From Phycisphaerae bacterium (GTDB lineage Bacteria; Planctomycetota; Phycisphaerae; Sedimentisphaerales; Anaerobacaceae), in contig JAAYBV010000054.1 in the NCBI GenBank assembly GCA_012744475.1, positions 1-38,384 on the forward strand: DNA of 38,384 nt. Direction: 5' to 3'. The translations under genes and the position numbers were made by a program. The notes under the pieces were generated by a model. The model did no database searches and was not told the DNA's origin. It worked only from the letters and a program-made list of their open reading frames with translations. This document shows, piece by piece, positions 8,361-38,384 of the stretch (position 1 is its first letter; every line of letters starts with the position of its first letter).

Positions 8361-9743
8361 ATGGACAGTCAAACGCAGTCGAAGGGTTTGACCTCATCGC
8401 AGACGGAAGGGACGCGATCCTCTCGCCGGCAGTTCCTGGCGCAGAGTTCGCGCGTCGTGGCCGGATCGGTGCTGGGCGGCGTCGCCCTGTCGCGCGCCTA
8501 CGCGGGCGAGAACAACACGATCCGCCTGGCCTTGGTCGGCTGCGGCGGACGCGGCGGCGGGGCGGCCGCTAACGCCCTCTCCTCGCAGACGGGACCGACG
8601 AAGCTCGTCGCCATGGCCGACGTGTTCGAAGACCGCCTGACGCGGTCCTATAATGCCCTGCGGGAACAGTTTGGCGAGCGGATCGACGTGCCCGAGGACC
8701 GGCGTTTTGTCGGGTTCGACGCGTATCGCAAGGCGATCGACTGCCTGCGGCCGGGCGACGTGATGATCCAGGCGACGCATTCCGCCTTCCGTCCCACACA
8801 CCTGGCGTACGCTGTCGAGAAAGGCGTCAACGCGTTCATCGAGAAATCCTTCGCTCCCGACCCCGGTGGCACACATGAGATCCTCCATCTGGGCGAGCTG
8901 GCCCGGCAGAAGAACCTCAAGATCGGTTGTGGCCTGATGTGCCGCCATTCGTCGGCCCGCCAAGCCCTCATCGAGAAGACTCGCGAAGGCGCGATGGGCG
9001 AGATCACGCTGATCCGCGCGTACCGGATGGATCCCGGCGCTCGCATGGGCCCGTTCCAGGGAGGCGAGAGCGAACTGCTCTGGCAGATCCGCCGGCCGTA
9101 CTTCTTCCTGTGGGTGTCCTCCGCGTGGTTCATCGAGATGATGATCCATCAGGTGGACGAGTGCTGCTGGATCAAGGACGCCTGGCCGGTGAGCGCCGAG
9201 GGTCTGGGCGGCTGCGAGCCGCGAAGCGACGATTGCAGCCAGAACGTGCACAGCTACGCTATCGAGTACACCTTCGGCGACGGGACCAAGGCATTCGTCA
9301 ACAGCCGCAACCAGCAGAACTGCCGCAACGACTTCGCCACCTTTGTGCACGGCACGAAGTGCGCCGCCCAGTTCTCGGGCAACGTCCACGCGCCGACCGT
9401 GCAGATTCACAGGGACCAGCGGATCAGCCGGGACAACATCGCCTGGCGTCCCGACGCTGAAAAGGTCAGCCCGTACCAGGCCGAATGGGACGCGCTGCTC
9501 GACGCGATCCGCAACGACAAGCCGTACAACGAGGTCCAGCGGGCCGCCTATACCAATCTGGCCTCCATTATGGGACGGGCGGCCATCCACACCGGCCAGA
9601 TCGTTACTTGGGAACAGATGATGGCCTCGAATTTCAAGTTCTGCCCGGATGTGAACTTCACGCTCAGAAGCCCCGCGCCGGTGCAGGCTGATGCGGAGGG
9701 ACGCTATCCGGTCCCGATCCCCGGCCAGTGGTCGGAAGTCTGA
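8361..9743 (+). CDS. Tat-exported Gfo/Idh/MocA-family protein, paralogue 3, altered active site
   Basis: The start is the ATG at 8361, after AAAGGGAG. The 460-residue product has a Tat signal (SRRQFL at 21-26) and Rossmann motif LVGCGGRGGG (58-67). The overall layout matches paralogues 1 and 2, but two conserved positions differ: EKP is EKS (161-163), and the aspartate of DxxxH is glutamate (E259, H263 in FIEMMIHQVD). The EKP lysine itself is kept. The protein may have a changed reaction or act as a binding or structural partner of the other paralogues. It shares the C-terminal NDKPYNE and GRYPVPIPG segments with them. Family is clear; activity is uncertain. Confidence 0.92.
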   Translation: MDSQTQSKGLTSSQTEGTRSSRRQFLAQSSRVVAGSVLGGVALSRAYAGENNTIRLALVGCGGRGGGAAANALSSQTGPTKLVAMADVFEDRLTRSYNALREQFGERIDVPEDRRFVGFDAYRKAIDCLRPGDVMIQATHSAFRPTHLAYAVEKGVNAFIEKSFAPDPGGTHEILHLGELARQKNLKIGCGLMCRHSSARQALIEKTREGAMGEITLIRAYRMDPGARMGPFQGGESELLWQIRRPYFFLWVSSAWFIEMMIHQVDECCWIKDAWPVSAEGLGGCEPRSDDCSQNVHSYAIEYTFGDGTKAFVNSRNQQNCRNDFATFVHGTKCAAQFSGNVHAPTVQIHRDQRISRDNIAWRPDAEKVSPYQAEWDALLDAIRNDKPYNEVQRAAYTNLASIMGRAAIHTGQIVTWEQMMASNFKFCPDVNFTLRSPAPVQADAEGRYPVPIPGQWSEV

Positions 9744-15206: not shown

Positions 15207-16217
15207 ATGGGAACCATCGAACAGGGCGTCAGGCAGGTGATCGACAACTGCCTGCGGATCCAGCCGGGCGAGCGTGTCGTTGTCATCACCGATCGCCCGA
15301 CGCTTGCGATCGGCGAGGCGCTGCGCGTCGCGGCCGAGAAGATCGTCGGCAGCGTCCAGTTCTTCCTGATGGAAGACTTCGGGACCCGGCCCGTCGCGTT
15401 TCCCTCCATCATCGCCGAGGCCCTGCGGAACGCCGACGTGAGCATCTACGCCGCCCAGGGCGCCGAAGGCGAACTCCAGACCTTCCGAAAGCCCATGCTC
15501 AAAGCGGTCGACGCGAACCCGAAGCTGCGTCACGCGCACATGATCGGCATCACGACGCAGATCATGACCGACGGCATGTGCAGCGACTACGTCGAGATCC
15601 AGAGGATCAGCAAACAGGTCTACGAGATCGTCCACGCCGCCAGGGCGATTCGCGTCGTGACCGCCAAAGGCTGTGATTTTACCGCCCGCTTCAGCCCCCA
15701 TCTGAAGTGGATCATCAGCGATGGAGACATCCGCCCCCGGCACTGGACGAATCTTCCCGACGGCGAGGTGTTCACCGCGCCGGCGTCGGTCGACGGGCGC
15801 GTCGTGATCGACGGTTGTCTGGGCGACTACTTCACGGAGCGGTATGCGTCGCTGGCCGAGACGCCCGTCACCGTGGACGTTCGCGACGGCTGCGCGGTCC
15901 GCGGGAGCCTGCGTTGCGACAACGAGCAACTGCGGCGAGAACTGGACGCCTACGTCTTCGAGACCGACGCCAACAGCAGCCGCGTGGGCGAGTTCGCCAT
16001 CGGCACCAACACCGGCCTGACCCGGCTGATCTACAACCTGCTCCAGGACGAGAAGTTTCCGGGCGTGCACATCGCGTTCGGCAGTCCCTATCCCGCCAAG
16101 ACAGGCGCCACGTGGGACAGCGCTGCGCACGTCGACGGCGTGATCATCGCGCCGAGCATCTACGTCGACGGCCGGACCCTCATGGATCAGGGCCGATTCT
16201 GCCTTGAAGGAATGTGA
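15207..16217 (+). CDS. M29-family aminopeptidase (thermophilic metalloprotease family)
   Basis: I chose the ATG at 15207 because GAGGAG lies 9 bases upstream; an in-frame ATG at 15183 has no comparable site. The 336-residue protein has no signal peptide. Family M29 metal ligands can be matched: E187 in DGEVFTAP, E262 in VGEFAIGTN, H288 in GVHIAFG, and the H308/D310 pair in AAHVDGVI. M29 enzymes are dinuclear-metal aminopeptidases with broad specificity that work in the cytoplasm as dimers. It follows two exported glycosidases but has a longer gap and is cytoplasmic, so it may be only a positional neighbour. Its stop lies 37 bases before the helicase start. Confidence 0.9.
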   Translation: MGTIEQGVRQVIDNCLRIQPGERVVVITDRPTLAIGEALRVAAEKIVGSVQFFLMEDFGTRPVAFPSIIAEALRNADVSIYAAQGAEGELQTFRKPMLKAVDANPKLRHAHMIGITTQIMTDGMCSDYVEIQRISKQVYEIVHAARAIRVVTAKGCDFTARFSPHLKWIISDGDIRPRHWTNLPDGEVFTAPASVDGRVVIDGCLGDYFTERYASLAETPVTVDVRDGCAVRGSLRCDNEQLRRELDAYVFETDANSSRVGEFAIGTNTGLTRLIYNLLQDEKFPGVHIAFGSPYPAKTGATWDSAAHVDGVIIAPSIYVDGRTLMDQGRFCLEGM

Positions 16218-16254
16218 CAACGGCACCGCGCATCCGAATGGAGGAGCATGGGTT

Positions 16255-17613
16255 TTGAGCAGGTCTGCGAAGAAGTCCGACCCAGATGAGGCGACGCCGA
16301 GCGTGCTGCCGCAGCCGTATCCGTATCACGATGCGCGGAACGCGGTGCTGCTGTCGGACGTGGTCGAGGGGCTTCTGTCGGGCCGGCGGATCTTTCTTTC
16401 CGGCGGCGCGGGCACGGGCAAGACCACGCTGGTCCGGCGGATCGCCAACCAGCTCGTGCAGCGCAGCAAGCACGTCGTCCTGGCGGCCTCGACGGGCATC
16501 GCCGCCTGCCAGTTGCGCGACGAGACGGGCATCCACAACTCGCACTACTGCCAGGGTCCGTCCACCCTCCACGCCGTCGCCTCGCTGCCCCGCGTCGAGA
16601 TGCCCGACTCCAATCGCAGGAGAGAGTGGGGACGCCGCAAGCTCGGACGCGCCGCCGTGATCATCGTCGACGAAATCAGCATGGTCGACCGCGTCACCTT
16701 CGACCGGTTCCTCGAACGCGTCGAGCCGGAAACCGGTATCCTGGTGGTGGGCGATTTCTTCCAGCTTCCGCCCGTGCCGCGCAACGAGGAGGGGCTGCCC
16801 GACTTCGCGTTCTACAGTACCTCGTTCGCCGATTTCGAGTTGATCGACCTGCAAACGGTGTTGCGGCAGGCCGAGCCGCACTTCATCGAATTCTTGAAGG
16901 ACCTCCGCCAAGGCCGCGTCAATGCCGCTGTCCTGGAACGTACGCAGCGCGAGTTCGACCCCGAATACCCCGTTCTCTTCGGCACCAACCGCCAGGCGGA
17001 CGCCCACAACCAGAGACGCATCGACCAGATCGACGCCCCGTCGGTCTATAGCGCCTGCCAGGTCAAGAAAGGCGACCGCGAGGAGGCGGCCCAGTGGCTC
17101 CAGGGCCACACGCGGGCCAAGGCCATCCTCCAGATCAAAGAGCAAATGCGGGTCCTGTGCATCCAGAATCACGAGGACCTGGTCAACGGCGACTTGGGCA
17201 CCGTCGTCGACATCTGCACCGAGTGCGAGCCGGGCACCGAGATGCCGTACTGGATTGACGTAGAGTTCGACCGCAACGGGCTCGCCACCCGCCGGCTCAA
17301 TCCCCTGGAGTTCCAGGAGCTGATCTGGGACTCCCGCAAAGACAAGGAGGAAGTCAAGTTCACGGTCGTGCAATACCCCATCGTGCCGGCCTACGCGCTG
17401 ACGGTCCACAAGGCCCAGGGCATGACGCTCGACGTCGTCAATATCGATGGTTCGCACGTCAATTTCGTTCCCGGCCACGTGTACGTGGCCCTCTCGCGGG
17501 CGCGGACCCTCGACGGCGTGCGCCTGCGCAACGCACGCGGCCTGGCCGCCTTCAACGATTCGGCGGTGCTGCACTACTACGAGCGGGCCTGCTGCTTCCA
17601 GGGCCGCTCGTAG
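16255..17613 (+). CDS. PIF1-like superfamily 1B DNA helicase
   Basis: I chose the TTG at 16255 because GGAGGAG lies 8 bases upstream. An earlier in-frame TTG at 16204 lies inside the previous gene with no binding site, and the ATG at 16248 is out of frame. The 452-residue protein carries SF1 helicase motifs in order: Walker A SGGAGTGKTT (49-58), motif Ia AASTGIAA (77-84), Walker B VDEISMVD (138-145), motif III GDFFQLPPV (166-174), and near the C-terminus a UvrD-C-like block with YALTVHKAQGMT and motif VI VALSRA. PIF1/RecD2-type helicases unwind DNA 5' to 3' and act in replication or recombination. Its place after sugar genes is odd. Substrate preference is not visible. Confidence 0.9.
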   Translation: MSRSAKKSDPDEATPSVLPQPYPYHDARNAVLLSDVVEGLLSGRRIFLSGGAGTGKTTLVRRIANQLVQRSKHVVLAASTGIAACQLRDETGIHNSHYCQGPSTLHAVASLPRVEMPDSNRRREWGRRKLGRAAVIIVDEISMVDRVTFDRFLERVEPETGILVVGDFFQLPPVPRNEEGLPDFAFYSTSFADFELIDLQTVLRQAEPHFIEFLKDLRQGRVNAAVLERTQREFDPEYPVLFGTNRQADAHNQRRIDQIDAPSVYSACQVKKGDREEAAQWLQGHTRAKAILQIKEQMRVLCIQNHEDLVNGDLGTVVDICTECEPGTEMPYWIDVEFDRNGLATRRLNPLEFQELIWDSRKDKEEVKFTVVQYPIVPAYALTVHKAQGMTLDVVNIDGSHVNFVPGHVYVALSRARTLDGVRLRNARGLAAFNDSAVLHYYERACCFQGRS

Positions 17614-17670
17614 TGACGCCGTCAGGCGTTATATGTCCTTGTGGACACACTACAAACCGATCTGCCCGAA

Positions 17671-28028: not shown

Positions 28029-28084
28029 CTTCAAACTTCAAACTTGAAACTTCACACTTCAAACCTCACGCTTGGAACTTCACC
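28029..28084. repeat. Heptamer array, CTTCAAA type, overlapping a stop codon
   Basis: Eight consecutive 7-base units: CTTCAAA, CTTCAAA, CTTGAAA, CTTCACA, CTTCAAA, CCTCACG, CTTGGAA, CTTCACC. The last unit covers the stop codon of the DUF748 gene (28080-28082). It fills most of the gap between that gene and the next minus-strand start. Confidence 0.85.
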
Positions 28085-31000
28085 TCGCCTTGCTCTTGGA
28101 GAGCGTAAGGGTGATCCGGCCTGCGGGATCGCCGGCTTCCGTGAAGCGGGGTGGCACGAACGTGACGCGTCCGGATGCCTCCGGTCCGTCTGCGGCCGGC
28201 TCGATCGCCAGAAGCGCCGCCACCGTTTCGATGCGCGCCTTGCCAATGGCAATGCAGGCATCCTGCGTGCGTCTTCTTACGGCGTACTCCGAGCCGGGAC
28301 GCATCGTCTCGAGGAGATTGTCCAGAGCCTGCTCGATCAGACCCAGTTGTGTCTCGGCCTGTTGCAACTGCCTTGTCCTGGTCGTTACGTTCCCGCGGGA
28401 GCCTGCGGCATAGGCCGCACGAGTCTGGCCTGCCAGTTCGTCTCTGCGTCGCCTCAGTTCGGTCCTTTCCTGGCGCAGCTTCGCCAACAGGGCCTTCGTC
28501 TGGGGCTCTGACAGGTTGACCAGGCCGGCGGCCTTTTCGATGTCTGCGGCGCCCAGGTGGTGGCGAACCGTAACCGCCAGGTCTCGTTCATTGCGCAGAC
28601 GCTCGGCGATCTGCGCCAGCTCTGCGGCCTGGTGATCGGAAAGCATGGTGATGCCGGCGGCATACTCCACGACGTAGGTTTCCGCGCCGCTGGTTTCCTC
28701 CTTGTCCCCGCCCAGGATATTGCCGATCGTTCCGGCGACCCGGTAGGGAGAACCTGCTACGGCGCCGGCGATGAGGGTCGCGGCCGCTCCCACGGCCGCC
28801 TGCGTAATCTGGCCGCGCGAGAGGCCGTCCTCGCCGATCTTGAACGACAGCGGCAGCCGAATGGACCCGCCCGCGTCCCGCAGAATGAAGAGCACCGTGT
28901 CCAGAGACGCCGGCAAAGTCAGAAGCTGCGCCAGAAAGCCATCGGGCGGCTCCGTCAGCGACAGGTCCGTAAAGACCAGCCGGGCCCGCGTCGAAAGAGG
29001 CTGATCCTTGTGGAACCGCATGTCGACGCTGGCGTCGAAAACGCCTTTGCGCAGGGTCACCCCGCTCTCGCTGGCCACGCCCCTGAAATTGACCAGCTCC
29101 AGTCCGCTCAGGCCGGCCTTCACCCAGCCGTCGGGACGCGGATAGAGGGTCAGGCGTCCGGTGGCCGACAGCTCCTGGAACAGCAGGCGATTCTCCATCG
29201 TCGAAGGCTCCGAGGAGTCCTCGATGTCCGCCAGAGGCAAATCGGCCGGCTCCTCGGAGGCGGATGCGGAGCTGCGCCTCGTCTGCGGCAACGGCACCTC
29301 CCCGGCCGTCGCAATCACGTTGAATCGCATCGGGGTCTTGACATCGGCGCCGGCTGTGGCGAATCCGCGAACCTCCACGTCCAGGCCCTTCAGTGGTACG
29401 TACATCGGGGGCTCGACCGTGTTGTCGACGAGAGCGAAATCGACGCCCGTCACCAGGAGCTGATCGACGCGCAGGTCGAACGCGGATTGTGGATTGTGGA
29501 TTGGCGATTGCGGATTGGCCGACGCGACCGCATTCGCATCGGCGGATCGCCCCTTCGCGGTCGTTTTCCAGGTCATTCCGAGCAGATGCCATCCGTCCGT
29601 TTCCCGCCGGATCGCCCCCTGCGGATTCACCAGGCCGATCTCCTTGACGTGAACGCTGCCGCTGTTCAAATCCACTTTTGGCGCCACGATCCGCAGTTCC
29701 TCGACTCCCGCCAGCACGGTGTCCGTCTGCGCGTCACGGAAGGCCATCGCCTTGACCCACGCATCTACGCCAAAAGGTCTGCTGAAGTCGAATTCTGCGA
29801 CGTCGCGTCGCTCCACGTGCAGCGTCAATTGCGCGGTCCCGGAGAACCTGCCGGTGTGCAGGTTGTTGGCATCCACTGCGCTGCGGACCTCCGGCAGGAT
29901 GGAAACCAATCCCGGGCCTTGGATCTGCGTGATGTCCCACTCGGCGAGAATCTGGGGCTGGGCGACGAAGGGAGACACCTCGATCTTCAGCGCCAGAGAC
30001 TCGGTCAAAGGCTCAATCTGGCCGTGGACATCGATCTTGACGGGCGGATTGGTGTCCGGCTCATCGCCAAGGAGCTTGACGGTCTCGGTATTGGCCACCT
30101 TCAAATTCGAGATGACCAAGGGTGTCGCCGCCGGCCTGGCGGCATCCTTCACGGTGAGTTTGCTGGCCTCCAACGACAATCGATCGAGGACAACCAGCGG
30201 CAGCCGCCGGGCCTTCCGTGCGACGGCGCTCGCAAGGCCCGGCGCCTGATCGGGCACGGTCTGTTGGGCCGCCGGCGGTTCCTCGCTGGCAGAAGGTGTG
30301 AGACCCCGCTGTTCATCCGTCGTGCCAGACGCGTCGGTGGGGGCCGACTCAGAAGCGCCAAAGTCAAATCCGAGCAGGCTCATCAGGCCGGAAGCCTTGC
30401 GTTCGACGGTGGCCTCCAGACCCTGGAGCGATACCTGCTCGATGGAGATCAGGTGTGCGTTCGGGTCGAAGCGATCGACGGCCAGTTCGGCCGAATCGAA
30501 TCGCAGGAAAGGCTCCGGCTCGGAATCCCCGCGGTAATCGACATCGGTTGCGCTGGCGCGGATGCGCCGGCCCCCTTCGGGATGCGCGGTCAGCTCGCCG
30601 GTGACTCGGGCGTGGAGTTGCCCTTGCTCCAGGGCCGGTCTGACGGCCGGCGGCAGGTAGCTCAGCAACGGTCCTGCATTGACGCCTGCCGCGTCCAGCG
30701 TCAGGTCGGCTCCCTGTTTTGACGGCGTTGTCTGAAGCTGTCCGGTCACGGTGGCCTTCTGCACGATGCCGGGGGCCCTGACGGTTGCGCTGATCGTCGT
30801 CGGAGGCGATTCAACTCCGAGGGCAAGCTCGCTCAGGGCGAGGTCGATCCCCACAGACTGGGATACCGCCGGCGTCACGGCGTGATCGGACCACTGAATC
30901 TGGGCGCCTTTCATTTCCAGCCGACCCACACGCACGGGCCGGACCGGCTCTGGCGAGGCCTCTGTCTCGGTCTTCTGCCCCCGGACGATACGCAGGCCCG

Positions 31001-33587
31001 CGCAGGCAAATACGCCGGATTCGTCGCGCGACAGCATCAGCCGTGGACGCTCGAGCATGATGCGCTCCACCTGGAAACCTGTGGCGGCCAGATGGAGCTG
31101 TGCGATGTCGATCTGGTCAAGTCCTGCCAACTCGGCCGCGCCGTCCCTGACAGCCGCATCGCGGATCGTCGCCGAGCAATGGAGCCCGTCGATTCCCCAT
31201 GTGATGCGTCCCTTCGTCCGGGCGGCCACACTGCCTTCTGTCATGACAGACTCGGTCCCAAGAGCCGCAAGGTAAGGCGCCATCGCCACCAGAGCCAGAC
31301 CTTCGCCACGCAGGTCCAGGTCGAAGGACAGCCCGGCCGGCTCGGGCGCAACCGAGCCGCTCAACTGGACGGTCTCGATGGTTCCCGGACTGCGCAGCCA
31401 TGCCTTCACCGATGCCGGCGATGCAGCGTTGGGATCACCTCCCAGGACAAGGTTCGTCAGTTCAAAGCCAAGGTCCGGCACCGCGATCGTCTTGGCGGGC
31501 GTGACCATCCGATCCACAAAAGTCAGTTCATTGTCGTGCCAGCTCAACCGCCCGATCTCAATCGGGGCGGTCTTCGTCCGATGTGCGCCGAGAGTCGATG
31601 GGGTCCGGATCTCTTGGACTGCCTCCATGCTCTCGGCTTGGTGCGGCGCTGGCTCGGACGTGCGGCCGACGAGGCGAAAGCCCAGAGTGGCCAAGCAGCC
31701 TTCTCTGTCCCGCGCGACCGCCAGACGCTGTCCGGAGATCTCAACCTGATCGATGCGCGTTGCCCCGGTAACCGGGTCGATACTGGCCCCTTGAACGCCG
31801 ATGGTCTTGAGGCCGAACAGCTCTTCGGTGTCCTGCAAGTGGATATTCGTGATGGCCCCGGACGCCCCGATGGGTTCATTCGGCTGATTGGTGAACGTCG
31901 CGTTCACGTCACACGAGAATGTCCCGCCGGTGTAGAGAGACTCCAGGCCGAGCCCTTCGAGATACGGCTGCAAGGCGTCCGGGCGGATTCCCGTGCCAGA
32001 GATCTTGAGCGCTGCGCTGCCCTGGGAAGACGACAGAACCACGGTCCCCTGGGTCTGGAGGCTCTCGACGACGCCCGGCGCCCCCAAACGAGCGGTCAGC
32101 GTCAATCCTTCCTGATCGGAGGCGGCGCTGCGGACCGTCACGTCGTTGAGGTCCAGCGCCAGATCGGCCTGTGGTGACACCGACTGATCGTGAAGCACCA
32201 GTCGCACGTCCCGCACCTCCACGCTGTCGAGCGACCACGCAAAGCCGTCGCTGGTCGCTGGTCGCTGGTCACTCGGGCCACTCGTCGGCTCCGGCCGCGG
32301 GCGCCGGGTGAACTGGAAACCGCCGACCGAAAGCGCGCCGGCCGGCCTCCTCCAGGCGTGGAACGCGCCCCCACGGATCTGTATCCGTCCCGCCCGAATG
32401 GCGCCCGAGTCCGCCACGTTCGCGTCGACCGCCGCGTGCTCCAGAACGAAATGCTCCGCGCCGTCAATCGTCACGGTCGTGTTCTTCGATTCGAGCTGAA
32501 CCTGGAGTGTGGCAGACGAAGGGGCCGCCGCGATCTCGTTCGACGAAAGTGTCTCGTCGATCACCGGGCCTGCATCGTTGGCGTCCATCACCTCGATCCC
32601 CTGGACGCGGACGGATCCGCTGCAGGACAGCGCCAGATTGCGCGCATCGGGAACGAGTCCCAGATCGGCCAGGTAATCCTTCACCGCGTCGGGATGCAGA
32701 CCCTGGAGGGCGACGTGGACTTCCGCCAGGAGGTCGCGCCCTTCGGCCGAGCCGGTCCCGTCGATCTGAAGCTGGTCCAGCACGGGAGGAGACGACAGGA
32801 GGATCTGGAACCGTGTCTTGCGTTTGTCGGATCGGAGGTCGGAAAGACGCACGTTCAGATCCAACTGCGTCTCAAAGACCGGCTCCACAGTCTCGTCTCG
32901 AAACTGCAACTGCACGTGCTGAAGTCTCAGCGCATCCATCTGGAGCGGCGGCGTCAGATCGATCTGCCCCGGCGACGCCGCGGTCGGGGCCGCCGCGGTA
33001 TCGGTCGGCTGTGCCGCCTTGCTGCGCTGGCGCAGGACGGTCAGCAGGGTCCGCAGTTGGGGAAACGTCCCATCCTGGGCCCGGGTCAGATTGATGTCCA
33101 TTCCGTCGATCTCGACGCGGCGGACGATGAGCCGACGTGTAAACAACGTCACCAGAGAGACCGCCGCCCGGCAGTACTCAACATCCGCAAATGGCGTGTT
33201 GGCGTCGGTCGGCACGAGAACCAGATGCCACAGTTCTGCGTCTCCGGTGAGCAGGGAGAGATTCAACCGTTCATAGCGCGCATTCAGGCCGTACTGCTCC
33301 ATCGTCTTGTCGATGATCCACGGCAGAGACAACCACAGCGCGATGCGGAGGACCACAATCACGGCGGCCAGGATTACACCGGCCCAGAACAGACGCCGGA
33401 GCCAACGGTGATGGTGGCCCGCCTCTTGTTCGATCCGCTGCTGGGGTGGTCCGCCGGCGGGCTGATCCGTTTCCGATCCGCCTGTGGCGGGGGCGGCTAC
33501 GGGCGAATAGTTATTCGCCCCTACCGCGGCCTGCCGCTTGTCCGGATGGTCCGAGAATGACTTGCGTTTTCTGTCTTTGTGCCGCAC
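28080..33587 (-). CDS. Giant DUF748/AsmA-like envelope protein
   Basis: The start is GTG at 33587 with AGGAG 6 bases upstream. The 1835-residue protein has a cytoplasmic tail (1-64), one membrane helix (about 65-86) and a very long extracytoplasmic region. The first part (ARYERLNLSLLTGDAELWHLVL, VRRVEIDGMDINLTR) and the repeated pattern of about 150-250 residues with VEIDGxx-like strands match DUF748/AsmA proteins. Near the C-terminus are LPLSFKIGEDG, a glycine/alanine-rich hydrophobic stretch, and a coiled-coil-like segment (KLRQERTELRRRRDELAGQ). Related AsmA-like proteins form lipid-conducting bridges between membranes; here that is inference. The tail carries two repeat-encoded peptides, GANNYSP (23-29) and ATGGSE. 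It lies 17 bases after the lipoprotein gene. Confidence 0.88.
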   Translation of the reverse strand: MRHKDRKRKSFSDHPDKRQAAVGANNYSPVAAPATGGSETDQPAGGPPQQRIEQEAGHHHRWLRRLFWAGVILAAVIVVLRIALWLSLPWIIDKTMEQYGLNARYERLNLSLLTGDAELWHLVLVPTDANTPFADVEYCRAAVSLVTLFTRRLIVRRVEIDGMDINLTRAQDGTFPQLRTLLTVLRQRSKAAQPTDTAAAPTAASPGQIDLTPPLQMDALRLQHVQLQFRDETVEPVFETQLDLNVRLSDLRSDKRKTRFQILLSSPPVLDQLQIDGTGSAEGRDLLAEVHVALQGLHPDAVKDYLADLGLVPDARNLALSCSGSVRVQGIEVMDANDAGPVIDETLSSNEIAAAPSSATLQVQLESKNTTVTIDGAEHFVLEHAAVDANVADSGAIRAGRIQIRGGAFHAWRRPAGALSVGGFQFTRRPRPEPTSGPSDQRPATSDGFAWSLDSVEVRDVRLVLHDQSVSPQADLALDLNDVTVRSAASDQEGLTLTARLGAPGVVESLQTQGTVVLSSSQGSAALKISGTGIRPDALQPYLEGLGLESLYTGGTFSCDVNATFTNQPNEPIGASGAITNIHLQDTEELFGLKTIGVQGASIDPVTGATRIDQVEISGQRLAVARDREGCLATLGFRLVGRTSEPAPHQAESMEAVQEIRTPSTLGAHRTKTAPIEIGRLSWHDNELTFVDRMVTPAKTIAVPDLGFELTNLVLGGDPNAASPASVKAWLRSPGTIETVQLSGSVAPEPAGLSFDLDLRGEGLALVAMAPYLAALGTESVMTEGSVAARTKGRITWGIDGLHCSATIRDAAVRDGAAELAGLDQIDIAQLHLAATGFQVERIMLERPRLMLSRDESGVFACAGLRIVRGQKTETEASPEPVRPVRVGRLEMKGAQIQWSDHAVTPAVSQSVGIDLALSELALGVESPPTTISATVRAPGIVQKATVTGQLQTTPSKQGADLTLDAAGVNAGPLLSYLPPAVRPALEQGQLHARVTGELTAHPEGGRRIRASATDVDYRGDSEPEPFLRFDSAELAVDRFDPNAHLISIEQVSLQGLEATVERKASGLMSLLGFDFGASESAPTDASGTTDEQRGLTPSASEEPPAAQQTVPDQAPGLASAVARKARRLPLVVLDRLSLEASKLTVKDAARPAATPLVISNLKVANTETVKLLGDEPDTNPPVKIDVHGQIEPLTESLALKIEVSPFVAQPQILAEWDITQIQGPGLVSILPEVRSAVDANNLHTGRFSGTAQLTLHVERRDVAEFDFSRPFGVDAWVKAMAFRDAQTDTVLAGVEELRIVAPKVDLNSGSVHVKEIGLVNPQGAIRRETDGWHLLGMTWKTTAKGRSADANAVASANPQSPIHNPQSAFDLRVDQLLVTGVDFALVDNTVEPPMYVPLKGLDVEVRGFATAGADVKTPMRFNVIATAGEVPLPQTRRSSASASEEPADLPLADIEDSSEPSTMENRLLFQELSATGRLTLYPRPDGWVKAGLSGLELVNFRGVASESGVTLRKGVFDASVDMRFHKDQPLSTRARLVFTDLSLTEPPDGFLAQLLTLPASLDTVLFILRDAGGSIRLPLSFKIGEDGLSRGQITQAAVGAAATLIAGAVAGSPYRVAGTIGNILGGDKEETSGAETYVVEYAAGITMLSDHQAAELAQIAERLRNERDLAVTVRHHLGAADIEKAAGLVNLSEPQTKALLAKLRQERTELRRRRDELAGQTRAAYAAGSRGNVTTRTRQLQQAETQLGLIEQALDNLLETMRPGSEYAVRRRTQDACIAIGKARIETVAALLAIEPAADGPEASGRVTFVPPRFTEAGDPAGRITLTLSKSKAR
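33478..33490. repeat. CCGCC-NNN-GGCGG palindrome inside a coding sequence
   Basis: CCGCC and GGCGG arms enclose TGT. In the frame of the DUF748 gene it encodes ATGGSE, in the cytoplasmic tail and 10 bases from a GANNYSP palindrome. The same family is at 34545-34557 (coding) and 35210-35228 (intergenic). Confidence 0.75.
33501..33520. repeat. GANNYSP-type palindrome inside a coding sequence
   Basis: GGGCGAAT / ATTCGCCC arms enclose AGTT. In the frame of the DUF748 gene it encodes residues 23-29, GANNYSP, before the membrane helix. Confidence 0.9.
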
Positions 33588-33604: not shown

Positions 33605-35107
33605 CTACGGTTGTTCCTGGAGAATCCGGTTCAGTACGTTGCGCCTTTCCTTGAGTGAGGCGAGGGGATCATAGCCCTGAGGCGCCTGGTCTCTGGCCGC
33701 CAGCCATTCAAAGGCCCGTGTCCGGGCGGCTGGCGAAATGTCCTCCAGATAGATGAAGTTCTCCAGGAGCAACCGCTGCCTCAGGTCCTCGATACTCGTC
33801 GCCTCCGAGACCATCTCCTGCAGAACGGAAGGATGACGACCCACCTCGCCGGCGTGGCGGATCACGACCGCCTCCAGGTCGGGCGACGTCTGGTCGGCGC
33901 TCAGCAGCTTGATGAGCAGTTGATACGCGGTCCGCTCCAGCCGCCATCCCAGGGTGGCTGTTTCAAAGGTGGAACCCGACCACTCGTTCGTGACCGCGTT
34001 CGCGAGACGGTCCACGACGGTGTCTGTCGCCGACAGCGTCACGTCGGCGAACAGCGGTGCTCCGGTCTCTTGTGCCAGGTACACCAGTGCCCGCTGCCTG
34101 TGTGTGGGCGACGCGAGCAGTCGCAGGGCGTCTTCGATGCCTCGTCTGCCAGCGTCGAACGGCGGTCGGTCGTCGCCTGTTCCCGCCGCTGCCAGCAGTT
34201 TGTCTCGACACTGCTTCCAGCTCGCTGCATAGGTGGCTGCTTCGGCCGTTCCTTCCGGCGGGGGCGGCTGCACTTCGATCAGCGCCGCGAATCCCACGAG
34301 TCCGTCCACGTCGAATGGAGACGGCAGCACGAACGCCAGGCGATCCTGCTCCTGCATGTCCTGTGGCGCCAGCGCGATCGTCTCGGTCGTCAGCATGCCC
34401 GTTCCGCCGGGCCCGGACGGCCCTTGGGGCTTCTCCGAATCGTCGGCCTCGGGGCCGGCCGTCTGCTTCAGATGTCCCGTCGCCACAAGCGAAACCTCCA
34501 GCGAAATCCGCCGCAAGCGGATCGCCGGCACGTTCGGTTCCGGTCCGCCCGTGGCGGATCTGCGGCGCACGTGGATCTCGAGCGTACGGATGGCGCCGGA
34601 ATCCGACGTCGGCTTCTCCGCGATGCGAATGACGGCGTCGATCCCATCGGGCAGAATGCCGTGCAGCTTTTCCACGAACAGCGGCGCTTCGGAGCCTTTG
34701 ACGGCGATCTGGCTCCAGAACTGTGCTCTGCTTTGAATCACGCCCACGCTGGCTCTTCTCATCAGACGCGGCACAGCCGCCACCGCCGTGCTCGCCGGGA
34801 GCACCGTGATCATTTGCGTCTGTGAGGCTACGGGTCTCAGGGTGTTCTCATGCCACTGGGTGATGGCCGCAATGGTCACGTTGATACCAAGGGAATCTTC
34901 GATGCGTCCCGGCGCGCCGGGATCGGCCGGCGATAAGCCTGTGGCGTAGCCGACGCCATACTGCAACTCGGAGCCGGGCAGAGGGTGAGCCGTCTTGAGG
35001 CCGGGACGGCAACCCGCAGACAAGGCCATCATCCAACTCATCAAGACGAGGGCAACTCGATACGGACCAGTTGAATTCCTGTGCCGGCAACTCCACTGTC
35101 GTTCCAT
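33605..35107 (-). CDS. Lipoprotein of unknown function, next to DUF748 and AAA-protease genes
   Basis: The ATG at 35107 gives a 500-residue product with a lipoprotein signal: basic start, hydrophobic 17-30 and lipobox LSAGC (Cys33). No strong binding site is seen, and an in-frame ATG inside the signal (MSWMMALSAGC) is an alternative start. The mature protein has no family I recognise. It contains a beta-rich middle (IRTLEIHVRRRSATGG, RRISLEVSLVATG), a PQGPSGPGGTG linker and a helical C-terminal third (DLRQRLLLENFIYLEDISPAARTRAFEWLAAR) with helical-repeat texture. Two repeat-encoded peptides lie in it: DPGAPG (62-67) and ATGGPE. It ends 17 bases before the DUF748 start, so the two proteins probably work together at the envelope. 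Confidence 0.82.
   Translation of the reverse strand: MERQWSCRHRNSTGPYRVALVLMSWMMALSAGCRPGLKTAHPLPGSELQYGVGYATGLSPADPGAPGRIEDSLGINVTIAAITQWHENTLRPVASQTQMITVLPASTAVAAVPRLMRRASVGVIQSRAQFWSQIAVKGSEAPLFVEKLHGILPDGIDAVIRIAEKPTSDSGAIRTLEIHVRRRSATGGPEPNVPAIRLRRISLEVSLVATGHLKQTAGPEADDSEKPQGPSGPGGTGMLTTETIALAPQDMQEQDRLAFVLPSPFDVDGLVGFAALIEVQPPPPEGTAEAATYAASWKQCRDKLLAAAGTGDDRPPFDAGRRGIEDALRLLASPTHRQRALVYLAQETGAPLFADVTLSATDTVVDRLANAVTNEWSGSTFETATLGWRLERTAYQLLIKLLSADQTSPDLEAVVIRHAGEVGRHPSVLQEMVSEATSIEDLRQRLLLENFIYLEDISPAARTRAFEWLAARDQAPQGYDPLASLKERRNVLNRILQEQP
34545..34557. repeat. CCGCC-NNN-GGCGG palindrome inside a coding sequence
   Basis: CCGCC and GGCGG arms enclose CGT, extending to an 8-base stem with one mismatch. 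In the lipoprotein frame it gives ATGGPE, the same reading frame as the copy in the DUF748 gene. Confidence 0.75.
34907..34922. repeat. CCCGGC-type palindrome inside a coding sequence
   Basis: A perfect 16-base palindrome, TCCCGGCGCGCCGGGA. In the lipoprotein frame it encodes DPGAPG (residues 62-67), in a variable stretch after the signal. Its core is the core of the 33-base repeat at 27991 and 35278. Confidence 0.7.
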
Positions 35108-35209
35108 GTTCGTCTCAGATCTGCATCCCCATGGTCGTTGCCACGGCGGGCGCCCGCCATGTTTCTTCCATAGGATAGCATGAGTCGGCGCAGAGCACAA
35201 GAATTGCCG

Positions 35210-35228
35210 GATCCGCCTGCGGCGGATC
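35210..35228. repeat. CCGCC-NNN-GGCGG palindrome, intergenic copy
   Basis: A perfect 8-base stem (GATCCGCC / GGCGGATC) around TGC. It is the first of three different palindromes packed into the gap between the lipoprotein start (35107) and the AAA-protease stop (35314). Confidence 0.8.
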
Positions 35229-35242
35229 GGATCACAGGTCCG

Positions 35243-35263
35243 GTAGGGTGTGCACCGCACACC
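35243..35263. repeat. Palindromic repeat, GTAGGGTGTGC type, copy 2
   Basis: GTAGGGTGTGC, then ACC and GCACACC; one base differs from the reverse complement of the copy at 479-499, more than 34 kb away. Confidence 0.85.
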
Positions 35264-35313: not shown

Positions 35314-38271
35314 TTAAGGGACCAAAGAGACCTCAGGGAAGGGCGAGGGCTGTCTGCCGAGCAGCTCGGTCAGTTGGGCCTCATCCAGCCGGTTGTGTTT
35401 GACCAGCGCATCGACCAGGCGATCGAATTCGTCGCGATGGGTCTCAATGAGTCTCCTGGCGACGTCCAGTTGTTCGGACACGATCCTCTCGGCCAGCATA
35501 AGGGTTTGTTCGGCGAGCGGGCGCTGGCTGTTCTCGACGAAGAGCTCATCGAGCGCCAATTGTCCGATCTCCTCGTCCATGCCGTAGACGCGAACCATCT
35601 GGATCGCCTTCTGCGATGCGTTGGGCAAGTCGCCGCCTCCACCGCCGATGGCTCGGGGCGCGCCGACGCCGATGCTCAGACCCGCGTCCGGGCCATAGCA
35701 GACCAGTTCCGCCGCGCGACCCGCCATGGAGATGCGAATATCACGAAGCAGATCTTCCTTGGTTTGCAGGTCGCGGTCGTCGTCATGTTTGCGTTCCATG
35801 TAACCGCCGGCCCCGCCGCGTCCGACGATCGTCACCTGATGGACCGGCGTGCCGCTTTTCCACGCCACCAGCGTGTGTCCCGCCTCGTGGCGGGCGATGC
35901 GGAGCAGCTTTGTCTGGTTCGTGCAGGGCAGGGCTTCGCCCATGCGCTGCTTCTCGAACGCCTCGAGCAGGATGCTGTCGGTGATGGTCGATCCCGCCAG
36001 CGCCGCCATCACTCCGGCTTCCTGGACGATGCGGGCCAGGTCGGCGATCGTCATGTATACGCTCTGATTGGCGATCGCTTCGAGAGTCTCGGCGCCGACC
36101 TCGGATTTCGATAGCTTTCCGATCGCCTGTTGCAGGTACGCCAGGCGAGCGGACCGGTCCGGCTCGTCGACCCTGATCTCGCGGTCGAAACGCCGCTTCA
36201 GCGCCGGGTCGAGCTTCTCGGCCAGGTTCGTCGCCGCCAGCACGATCACCGGGGCGTCCGCCGTCGCGCCGAACCCGTCCATTTCCGTCAGGAGGGTGTT
36301 GAGCGTTGTCTCGCGGGACTCGCTGGTGGTTGCGCCGCTGCGCGTCTTGCCCACCGCGTCGATCTCGTCGATGAATACGATCGCAGGGGCGTACTTGCGT
36401 GCCCGCTGGAACAGCTTCCGCACGTTTTCCGGACCGCTGCCTTGCCACTTGGTGATGAAGTTGCCGCCGGATTCCTCCATGAACGCACAATTCGACTCTC
36501 CGGCGACCGCCCGGGCGAGCATGGTCTTGCCGGTTCCGGGCGGGCCGCTCAGGAGAATGCCCTTGGGCGGGCGCAGCCCCAGTCCCGCGTAACGCTTGCG
36601 GTTCTTCAGCCAGTCGACCACGAAGCCCAGCGATTTCTTCGCGGCGGTCGCGCCGAAGACTTCGTCGAAGCGGGTGGAAGGACGTTCCACGTCGCTGACC
36701 AGGCCGACCACGTCTTCGGCCTCGATGACACGCTGGAGTCGGAATCCGCGAGTCCAGATCCCCAGGTGACGAGCCGACTCGTTCAGGCGGGCGACCGTGT
36801 CGAACTCCAGGCACTGGCGCTGCCGCGCGAGATCGGCGGCCACCTTTTCGCGGAACAGGCGAAGCAGAATCCCCTGAAGGGCCGCCGCGAATCCCGGCGC
36901 GCCGGGGTCGGTTTTTGAGGATCGGTCATATTCGGTTGCGATCATCCCTCGGGCGCCGCCGGCTCGGACGCAGGCCAGAAACAACTCTTCGTCGATCGGC
37001 CGGGGCCTCTTCGCGTCGTGGGGGCGCTCATTGACGTCGTACCGATCATCCACGCAAACGGTCTTTGTCGCGCCGTCGGCCTGTTGCGTCTGGAATGACA
37101 GCAGGTAAACCGGGACATCCGAGAAACGCTTGCGAATGGTCTGGAGGATCGTCCGGCCGTTGTCGAAGGCCCTGGCCGACAAGGGGAGATGATCGATCCG
37201 GCCCGCGCTCGGTAGGGGCGAATAATCATTCGCCCCTGCGCCGGCCCGATCGTGTCCCGTCGAGACCCACAGGTCCAGCAGGATCACGTTGACTTCATGG
37301 GCAGTCAGTTGACTGACCACTTCTTCCTTCGTCGCGGCCGAGATCCACTCGAACTCCGGATGGGCCTGGCGACAACGCGAGGCGAAGGCCTCATCCGCCA
37401 CCAGGAGCACAGTCGATTTGTCCGGATTGAACAGGAGTCTCTGCGTCGCAGGGTGATTCTGAATCTCGGCCGGATCGACAGTGAAGAGCACCTCGTCGAT
37501 CTGCTCGAGCACTTTTTCGACGCGCTGCGACTCGTAGAGGCTACAGAACTTGAACAGCTCCGATTTGACGAATCGCTCCACCTCGCTGCGCAACTGCCGG
37601 GCGTCGATGCTCGCGCCGCATCGCAGCACGAGCAGGATCGGCAGGATCGGATCGTGTCGAAACGTCTTGAAGTACTGCCGTTCGAGCAGGGCCTCGGTGC
37701 GCGTCATTTCCGTCTCGGCGATGCGTTCAAGCTCGTTGATGCCCAAATGATTGAACATCAGCGGATAGCCCTGCCCGAGCCGGCTGCAAATGGCCGGCGG
37801 AAAGGCCGGCTGGCCGGTCGTGGGATTCTTCTCGTTCGCCAGCGCGCTGAGGATCGTGCGCTTGTGATAGTCGGCGTTGACCGCGGAGATCCCGCTGGCG
37901 TTGGGATTCTCGTAGAGGCTCCGCCCGGCGTTCGTCGTGAAGATGATGATCGTGTCGCGGAAGCACACATCCTCGTCGTCGAATTTGTCGTGCAGTCGGC
38001 CGGCGTCGAGGATCTGATAGAACAGTTGCATCGTGTTCAGATGCGCCTTCTCGATCTCGTCGAACAGCAGGATGGCGTTGGGATTCTGCTTGACGAATCC
38101 CGTCAGGAGGCCGGGCTTGGCGGCCTGAAAGGACGGCGCAAAACCGACGAGCTGGTTGTCGGCCTGGTGGTCGCTGTAGGCGGTCATGTCGAACCGCTTG
38201 AAGGGACGCTTCAGATGAGCGGCGCACAGCTCGGCCATGTGGGTCTTGCCGACCCCGGGCGAACAGGTCAC
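35314..38271 (-). CDS. ClpB-like AAA+ / receiver-like / FtsH-like AAA+ / M41 zinc protease chimera
   Basis: From a GTG at 38271 this is a 985-residue protein. Residues 1-200 are a ClpA/ClpB-type AAA+ module: SPGVGKT (4-10), Walker B AILLFDEIEKAH (66-77), sensor IIIFTTNAG (108-116). Its N-terminal strand is missing or truncated. Residues about 286-393 look like a response-regulator receiver: LLVADEAF, phosphoacceptor candidate D333 in VILLDLW, PVYLLSF. Residues 534-770 are an FtsH-type AAA+ module: SGPPGTGKT (575-583), IVFIDEIDAV (631-640), RRFDREI with arginine finger (693-699). Residues 790-960 are an M41 peptidase: HEAGH (795-799) and a third-ligand candidate D881. There are no membrane helices, unlike FtsH. 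Repeat-encoded peptides GANDYSP (347-352 with G346) and DPGAPG (455-460) lie in the loop after D333 and in a linker. Confidence 0.88.
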   Translation of the reverse strand: MTCSPGVGKTHMAELCAAHLKRPFKRFDMTAYSDHQADNQLVGFAPSFQAAKPGLLTGFVKQNPNAILLFDEIEKAHLNTMQLFYQILDAGRLHDKFDDEDVCFRDTIIIFTTNAGRSLYENPNASGISAVNADYHKRTILSALANEKNPTTGQPAFPPAICSRLGQGYPLMFNHLGINELERIAETEMTRTEALLERQYFKTFRHDPILPILLVLRCGASIDARQLRSEVERFVKSELFKFCSLYESQRVEKVLEQIDEVLFTVDPAEIQNHPATQRLLFNPDKSTVLLVADEAFASRCRQAHPEFEWISAATKEEVVSQLTAHEVNVILLDLWVSTGHDRAGAGANDYSPLPSAGRIDHLPLSARAFDNGRTILQTIRKRFSDVPVYLLSFQTQQADGATKTVCVDDRYDVNERPHDAKRPRPIDEELFLACVRAGGARGMIATEYDRSSKTDPGAPGFAAALQGILLRLFREKVAADLARQRQCLEFDTVARLNESARHLGIWTRGFRLQRVIEAEDVVGLVSDVERPSTRFDEVFGATAAKKSLGFVVDWLKNRKRYAGLGLRPPKGILLSGPPGTGKTMLARAVAGESNCAFMEESGGNFITKWQGSGPENVRKLFQRARKYAPAIVFIDEIDAVGKTRSGATTSESRETTLNTLLTEMDGFGATADAPVIVLAATNLAEKLDPALKRRFDREIRVDEPDRSARLAYLQQAIGKLSKSEVGAETLEAIANQSVYMTIADLARIVQEAGVMAALAGSTITDSILLEAFEKQRMGEALPCTNQTKLLRIARHEAGHTLVAWKSGTPVHQVTIVGRGGAGGYMERKHDDDRDLQTKEDLLRDIRISMAGRAAELVCYGPDAGLSIGVGAPRAIGGGGGDLPNASQKAIQMVRVYGMDEEIGQLALDELFVENSQRPLAEQTLMLAERIVSEQLDVARRLIETHRDEFDRLVDALVKHNRLDEAQLTELLGRQPSPFPEVSLVP
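35316..35342. repeat. Partial nonamer array overlapping a stop codon
   Basis: Three 9-base units, AAGGGACCA, AAGAGACCT, CAGGGAAGG, match the GGACC half of the arrays at 5012 and 22597. They encode the last residues of the AAA-protease protein (SLVP end) and reach its stop codon. Confidence 0.55.
36892..36907. repeat. CCCGGC-type palindrome inside a coding sequence
   Basis: TCCCGGCGCGCCGGGG, one base from a perfect 16-base palindrome. In the AAA-protease frame it encodes DPGAPG (455-460), the same peptide and frame as the copy in the lipoprotein gene. Confidence 0.7.
37215..37236. repeat. GANNYSP-type palindrome inside a coding sequence
   Basis: GGGGCGAAT / ATTCGCCCC arms enclose AATC. In the AAA-protease frame it encodes GANDYSP, in the loop that follows the putative phosphoacceptor aspartate of the receiver-like domain. 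Confidence 0.9.
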
Positions 38272-38384
38272 ACACTGCTCATGATTCGTTCACAGGCAAG
38301 ATCTGGTACCGATATCATCCACTTTATGGATGCGAAGTGCGCGTGTGGCGGCGGGTGTCTCAGTATCATTCCGAGGATATCGTA
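38268..38384 (-). CDS. Upstream open frame, partial (N-terminus off window)
   Basis: In the frame next to the AAA-protease, 38 codons are open from the window edge to a TGA at 38268-38270, ending with ACERIMSSV. This TGA overlaps the GTG start at 38271 as GTGA, an arrangement typical of coupled genes. Alternatively it is the true N-terminal part of the AAA protein, separated by a two-base slip in TGTGTG: losing one TG would join MSSV to TCSPGVGKT and restore a strand before the Walker A motif. I cannot decide from this window. Confidence 0.4.
   Translation of the reverse strand, partial: YDILGMILRHPPPHAHFASIKWMISVPDLACERIMSSV

Follow-up and report, generated by a model that had tools for sequence, protein, structure and literature searches.

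A Clp-type motor, a pseudo-receiver and an FtsH-type zinc protease in a single, apparently soluble bacterial chain

We analyzed one whole contig of 38,384 bases from a Phycisphaerae bacterium (C28 of genome G000; "the window" hereafter), which carries at its end most of a gene for an AAA+ protease with two motors. The open frame (35314-38271, minus strand, 985 amino acids (aa)) holds the 3' part of the gene, while the 5' part lies on another contig of the same genome, C84. From N- to C-terminus, the chain consists of a Clp-like N domain, a motor resembling the D2 of ClpA, a pseudo-receiver collar, an FtsH motor, and an M41 protease. On balance, we favor the view that this is a soluble protease whose two AAA+ motors are both active and belong to different clades, encoded in a Ser/Thr-kinase-linked cluster for quality control or regulated proteolysis. 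The parts of the gene in the window are as follows:

35314-38259, minus strand: 3' part of the fusion gene, residues 5-985 and stop, with homology to the relative in genome G359 over residues 5-975
37537-38259, minus strand: module 1, ClpA-D2-type AAA+, with a partial Walker A, Walker B DE at 71-72, N114, R164, and R225
36814-37422, minus strand: predicted pseudo-receiver domain, residues 284-486, with beta-3 Asp333 present, Lys and the first acid missing
36691-36813, minus strand: beta-hairpin and linker from the receiver to the FtsH module, residues 487-527, placed by the secondary structure of the model
35947-36690, minus strand: module 2, FtsH-type AAA+, with GPPGTGKT at 576, pore loop WQG at 609, DE at 635-636, and RR at 693-694
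35359-35901, minus strand: M41 zinc protease domain, with HEAGH at 795-799 and third zinc ligand Asp881

Domain order and spread of the family

Pfam places AAA_2 (residues 5-126), AAA (572-702), and Peptidase_M41 (791-970) on the 985-aa frame. Among NCBIfam models, the front of the window protein scores higher with ClpA (105.7 bits) than with ClpV (86.8) or ClpB (78.8); a reading made earlier from the sequence alone (the sequence-only reading) had called this module ClpB-like, which holds for the Clp type but not for the closest member. The back scores 347.1 bits with FtsH (TIGR01241) and that of a relative, L077, 372.7, both under the 600-bit equivalog cut-off. An ordinary FtsH gene is also present in this genome, on contig C30.

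As a query on its own, the window protein gave ordinary FtsH or Clp matches or nothing among the matches listed; the family surfaced with the receiver segment and a two-row alignment. The family profile made from this alignment (window and G359 proteins) and searched against genome_contigs found 28 loci among 79 candidate stretches, with the fusion in a single frame at 27 of the 28. Together with the Pfam matches and the structure model, this upholds the single chain of Clp-type AAA+, receiver-fold domain, FtsH AAA+, and M41 that had been proposed at the outset, and excludes for the family that an assembly error merged two genes, one for each half. Members not truncated by a contig end span 1147-1437 aa when the earliest possible start is used (L074 and L098 are truncated at the 5' end, L094 at the 3' end); in G359, the full-length relative has 1172 aa and is identical to the window protein in 413 of 989 alignment columns. 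L098 and L100, both divergent members from Bacillota, continue past the protease with additional C-terminal sequence.

Judged by record titles, the family reaches 12 phyla: Planctomycetota, Gemmatimonadota, Verrucomicrobiota, Lentisphaerota, Acidobacteriota, Nitrospirota, Pseudomonadota, Myxococcota, Melainabacteria, Armatimonadota, Chloroflexota, and Bacillota including Lachnospiraceae. Most of these titles denote metagenome-assembled genomes, any single one of which may be wrongly binned, and L092, whose title gives no phylum, was counted with Bacillota because the tree pairs it with a Lachnospiraceae row. The spread is sporadic: within Planctomycetota the receiver profile did turn up a second genome besides our own, but these two are all among 392. 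The architecture is rare but widespread, yet narrow literature searches, with most subscription papers outside their reach, found no described protein with this domain order, in agreement with the sequence-only reading.

In a tree of 62 FtsH modules, a branch with support 100/100 separates the 28 fusion rows from 34 ordinary FtsHs, of which 30 come from the own genome and its relatives and 4 from plasmids. The tree has long branches (L086 1.23, L208 0.89, window 0.85) and two long Bacillota groups that meet, the letter make-up is odd in five fusion rows, and the root was drawn at the midpoint. Relatives from dissimilar phyla neighbor one another in it. L099 was left out of the protein alignments, L089 and L099 out of alignment A2, and L075, L089, and L099 out of A3; X letters from masked bases were taken out of L075 in one alignment. 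The L099 contig, from Oscillospiraceae, holds at 9001-9444 a stretch of 147 aa left over from the first motor of the family, perhaps a decayed copy. Candidates G022, G427, and G513 were rejected as relatives: in G022 a Clp frame is joined via a masked run to unrelated sequence, and G427 and G513, which matched the receiver segment at an expect value (E) of 6-8e-4, did not recur with the profile, with no fusion among the G513 frames listed. A scan of viral_contigs with the two-row alignment gave at least 80 loci; those listed are partial, and the widest reaches query residues 705-767.

Motors, pseudo-receiver, and protease

We scored conserved residues in 28 aligned rows, comprising 27 relatives and the window. 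In module 1, the Walker A Lys and Thr, the Walker B Asp and Glu, the sensor-1 Asn, the Arg finger, and the sensor-2 Arg are each kept in 28 of 28 rows, and the second Walker A glycine in 27. These are motifs of a D2-type motor, under what we take to be their customary names; in the window copy we assume that N114 is sensor 1, R164 the Arg finger, and R225 sensor 2. The second motor and the protease are equally well kept: the module 2 Walker A Lys and Thr, Walker B, sensor 1, and RR, as well as the M41 HExxH and third-ligand Asp, are each present in all 28 rows. Pore loop 1 of module 2 has W or Y in 21 rows and is gapped in 7 (L092-L096, L098, and L100). A full-length model of L077 (predicted local distance difference test (pLDDT) 81.9, predicted template modeling score (pTM) 0.58) matches ClpA with Z 24.8 over 289 residues and apo-FtsH (3kds) with Z 35.0 over 416 residues at 40% identity. 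As in FtsH, m-AAA, and i-AAA proteases, a C-terminal AAA+ module is followed by M41 with HExxH and a third zinc ligand Asp; unlike FtsH, the family has a Clp motor and a pseudo-receiver ahead, forms a separate branch, and scores below the TIGR01241 cut-off.

The absence of a membrane helix, which the sequence-only reading had noticed, is borne out in that none is clear in the family. The 19-residue hydropathy peaks at 1.37 for the window chain, at 1.59 for the 5' part on C84, and at no more than 1.72 among 28 relatives (1.60-1.72 in L077, L078, L079, L082, and L101), versus 1.93-3.19 in 34 of 34 ordinary FtsH frames. Judged by hydropathy, the chain is apparently soluble.

Relatives carry a Clp-like N domain ahead of module 1. 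A profile of 10 N-terminal rows of the own-genome type matches the ClpC N domain (E 6.9e-8), and Pfam Clp_N scores above its cut-off in L080 and L075, which have N-termini of another type. The L077 model shows N-terminal helices that run directly into the single ATPase before the receiver, and D1 and D2 are not in one chain. A candidate for the D1 is a gene of about 350 aa upstream: its profile (8 rows) matches ClpC from 48 to 345 with E 2.1e-22, which, by domain borders that we assume, runs from the N domain into D1, and a P-loop is found in 0 of the 8. In our reading, the partner is probably a dead D1 split from its D2. The family thus resembles ClpA, ClpC, and ClpB (Hsp100) in its N domain and D2-type motor and differs from them in having D1 outside the chain, in the P-loop-less D1-like partner gene upstream, in lacking the FGF-type ClpP loop, and in the fused protease. 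By eye, the FGF-type docking loop is present in 17 of 17 ordinary Clp frames versus 0 of 28 family rows (motif with F allowed first), which fits a motor whose protease sits in its own chain.

The domain between the motors is barely recognizable from sequence: PF00072 matches the window segment with E 0.021, below the cut-off, and gives no match in the G359 protein. An AlphaFold model of the segment made with 27 sequences has five alternating strands and helices, (beta-alpha)5, with pLDDT 79.5 and pTM 0.78. Of the 50 Foldseek rows shown, 49 read as receivers or response regulators (best E 1.2e-4) and row 16 is USP11; rows 7, 18, 22, 24, 34, and 49, whose titles do not say so, we take to be receivers. 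Against NtrX (VIA), the model aligns with Z 15.4 and a root-mean-square deviation of 2.5 over 134 residues. Like the receiver-controlled AAA+ activators NtrC1 and NtrX, the protein has a receiver fold adjoining an AAA+ module, but unlike them it has it between two motors and with the phosphorylation chemistry mostly lost: the first acid and the Lys are found in 0 of 28 rows, the second acid in 14, the beta-4 Ser in 11, and the beta-3 Asp in 27. We therefore regard the domain, on the predicted fold and these residues, as a pseudo-receiver. The sequence-only reading had suggested that a receiver-like domain looks phosphorylatable and could switch the protein by a two-component signal; on this view, a histidine kinase would act on Asp333. 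Its receiver survives as a fold, and the beta-3 Asp is the sole result that keeps the switch open; the missing Lys and first acid, and the Ser/Thr type of the kinases encoded nearby, make such a two-component switch very improbable. A histidine-kinase query picked by eye from C84 found, besides itself, a match at 1 of 28 other loci, about 6 kilobases (kb) away, as a single query of low sensitivity. A histidine kinase-like gene, recognized by eye, lies in L073 at 15405-17636 (minus strand), outside the kinase-Hsp70-PP2C run and upstream of the 5' part of the fusion gene by about 15 kb.

Gene neighborhood and proposed function

On C84, the genes in order toward the 5' part of the fusion gene encode a Ser/Thr kinase, a 540-aa protein, Hsp70, a PP2C phosphatase, and a 376-aa partner. 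The 540-aa protein, like a 940-aa one in L086, has no Pfam match at 1e-4 and a likeness to J domains by eye alone. Home-made neighbor profiles, some of them built from test loci, were run over 29 loci (the 28 and C84) and found the kinase in 13, PP2C in 6, Hsp70 in 4, and the ~350-aa partner in 11. Outside Bacillota, the kinase is found at 13 of 19 loci, and 3 of the 6 misses are contigs shorter than 6 kb. As a control, we used 20 ordinary ftsH loci of 13.4-19.5 kb from Planctomycetota relatives, which gave no kinase, no PP2C, no Hsp70, and one weak partner-type match; with the threshold lowered to E 0.01, kinase and PP2C were still at 0 of 20. The kinase is enriched over the control by Fisher's test both outside Bacillota (13/19, p 3.3e-6) and overall (13/29, p 2.7e-4), and remains so without the three loci that built the kinase profile (10/16, p 3.2e-5; 10/26, p 0.0024). 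Hsp70 on its own is weak (4/19, p 0.047). Among 9 kinases scanned with Pfam, FHA is present in 3, WD40 in 3, and TPR in 2; the own-genome kinase has none of them.

We infer a likely machine of six chains arranged in stacked rings. Substrate would be captured by the N domains, together with the P-loop-less Clp N+D1 partner as a separate protein and perhaps with Hsp70; the Clp-type ring would unfold it and pass it by the pseudo-receiver into the FtsH ring and then the M41 chamber. With an FtsH ring and an M41 chamber in its own chain, such a machine would therefore not need ClpP. We further infer that the machine is probably gated, or its substrates marked, through the Ser/Thr kinase and PP2C phosphatase of the cluster. 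A more specific proposal, which we put forward tentatively, is a soluble three-tier machine for a phosphorylation-marked degradation route: Clp-clade and classical-clade rings would work in series on one substrate, with a pseudo-receiver collar, a dead D1 in trans, and activity set by the dedicated Ser/Thr kinase, PP2C, and Hsp70. If true, the family would provide a natural setting for testing how a pair of dissimilar AAA+ motors operates serially within a chain, and likewise for testing proteolysis controlled by Ser/Thr phosphorylation in bacteria.

Several observations weigh against our favored reading of two threading motors in a kinase-linked cluster. Kinase, PP2C, Hsp70, and partner are found at 0 of 10 loci of the Bacillota group, so phospho-control is not universal. 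The controls are Planctomycetota only, whereas the test loci span the 12 phyla, and the neighbor profiles were built from test-set members, with left-out builders all recovered. Pfam Clp_N matches 0 of 5 N-termini of the own-genome type, the pTM of the L077 model makes its domain placement unsure, and the copy in the window is interrupted and on a long branch. Finally, module 1 departs from GYVG in its pore loop 1, with an aromatic by eye in 25 of 28 rows (not in L086, L087, or L089), and threading may differ in rows where pore aromatics are gapped or atypical. Such a loop would also suit a module 1 that serves as a regulatory or assembly ring and does not thread substrate; with its ATPase residues kept as described above, we consider this unlikely.

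We also weighed whether the protein is a biological-conflict or defense machine whose effector is the protease, comparable to the MoxR-vWA-FtsH ternary systems (Kaur et al. 2020; PMC7159879). These systems occur in planctomycetes, and the main text of that paper does not name M41. Their FtsH component likewise has two ATPase domains in one chain with the FtsH type last, and MoxR and vWA genes lie alongside, but of its two FtsH-type ATPases the first is inactive and the second active, whereas here the first is Clp-type and keeps its motifs. The sporadic spread of the family and the adjoining of dissimilar phyla in the tree would suit a role in conflict, as would the kinase, WD40, and Hsp70 genes nearby and two genes near the fusion in L082 (6525-7364 and 11123-12856), a trypsin-like protease gene and a VWA-FHA gene. 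The latter is the one VWA gene that we noticed, with no systematic MoxR/vWA search made. On the other side, PADLOC gives 10 families that, judging by their names, are all AAA+-type models (IetA, DolB, TRIP13); the receiver segment has no match in plasmids; and 0 of 142 phage records cover 80% of the query, with the Clp-type part alone matching among the 10 rows seen. We think a defense role improbable, and keep to regulated proteolysis or quality control.

The interrupted copy at the contig end

The frame at 35314-38271 had been taken as a gene and is indeed open, but it is a fragment of the family's longer protein, with a start in foreign sequence and the 5' part on C84. Homology to the G359 relative begins at window residue 5, within Walker A. 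The gene's first 208 residues, absent from the window, match C84 at 116-757 on the minus strand (E 1.7e-35). The features at the two contig ends are as follows:

38260-38384, strand not applicable: about 125 foreign bases, a putative mobile-element end, holding the GTG (38271) read as start; residues 1-4 are read from this tail
C84:1-757, minus strand for the 5' part: the other foreign tail (C84:1-125) and the 5' part of the gene

Both contigs depart from the gene at identical codons, and each ends 125 bases further, with the edges as set; these are uncertain by a few bases because C/G runs are common to both flanks. Compared as imperfect inverted repeats, the two tails agree at 14 of 20 positions (p 0.0002 by shuffling), a match equalled by 1 of 6966 real stretches; the 20 bases are the best of four lengths, and 15, 25, and 30 gave p 0.005-0.006. 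Equal tail lengths would fit an assembler that uses words of about 127 bases. The simplest reading is that the gene was probably split by insertion of a mobile element in its first Walker A motif and that the assembly broke at the repeat.

Alternatively, the break is an assembly fault alone and the cell has an intact gene. In favor of this, neither tail has a second copy in this assembly, and a strain mixture could break contigs. The shared departure codons, the equal 125-base tails, and their inverted-repeat pairing argue against this, and we hold it to be somewhat unlikely. The C84 tail was not found in the 20 relatives searched, and a peptide from one tail has no match in plasmids.

With the gene probably split by a mobile element, the window copy may be nonfunctional in this genome. 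Its M41 domain has a glycine-rich stretch at about 35620-35670, with 9 extra residues right before the third zinc ligand that are not in G359; this insertion and the long branch may reflect relaxed selection. Downstream on the same strand lie genes for a 551-aa protein (33605-35260, minus strand) with no Pfam match at 0.001 and for a 1835-aa DUF748/AsmA-like protein (28080-33587, minus strand).

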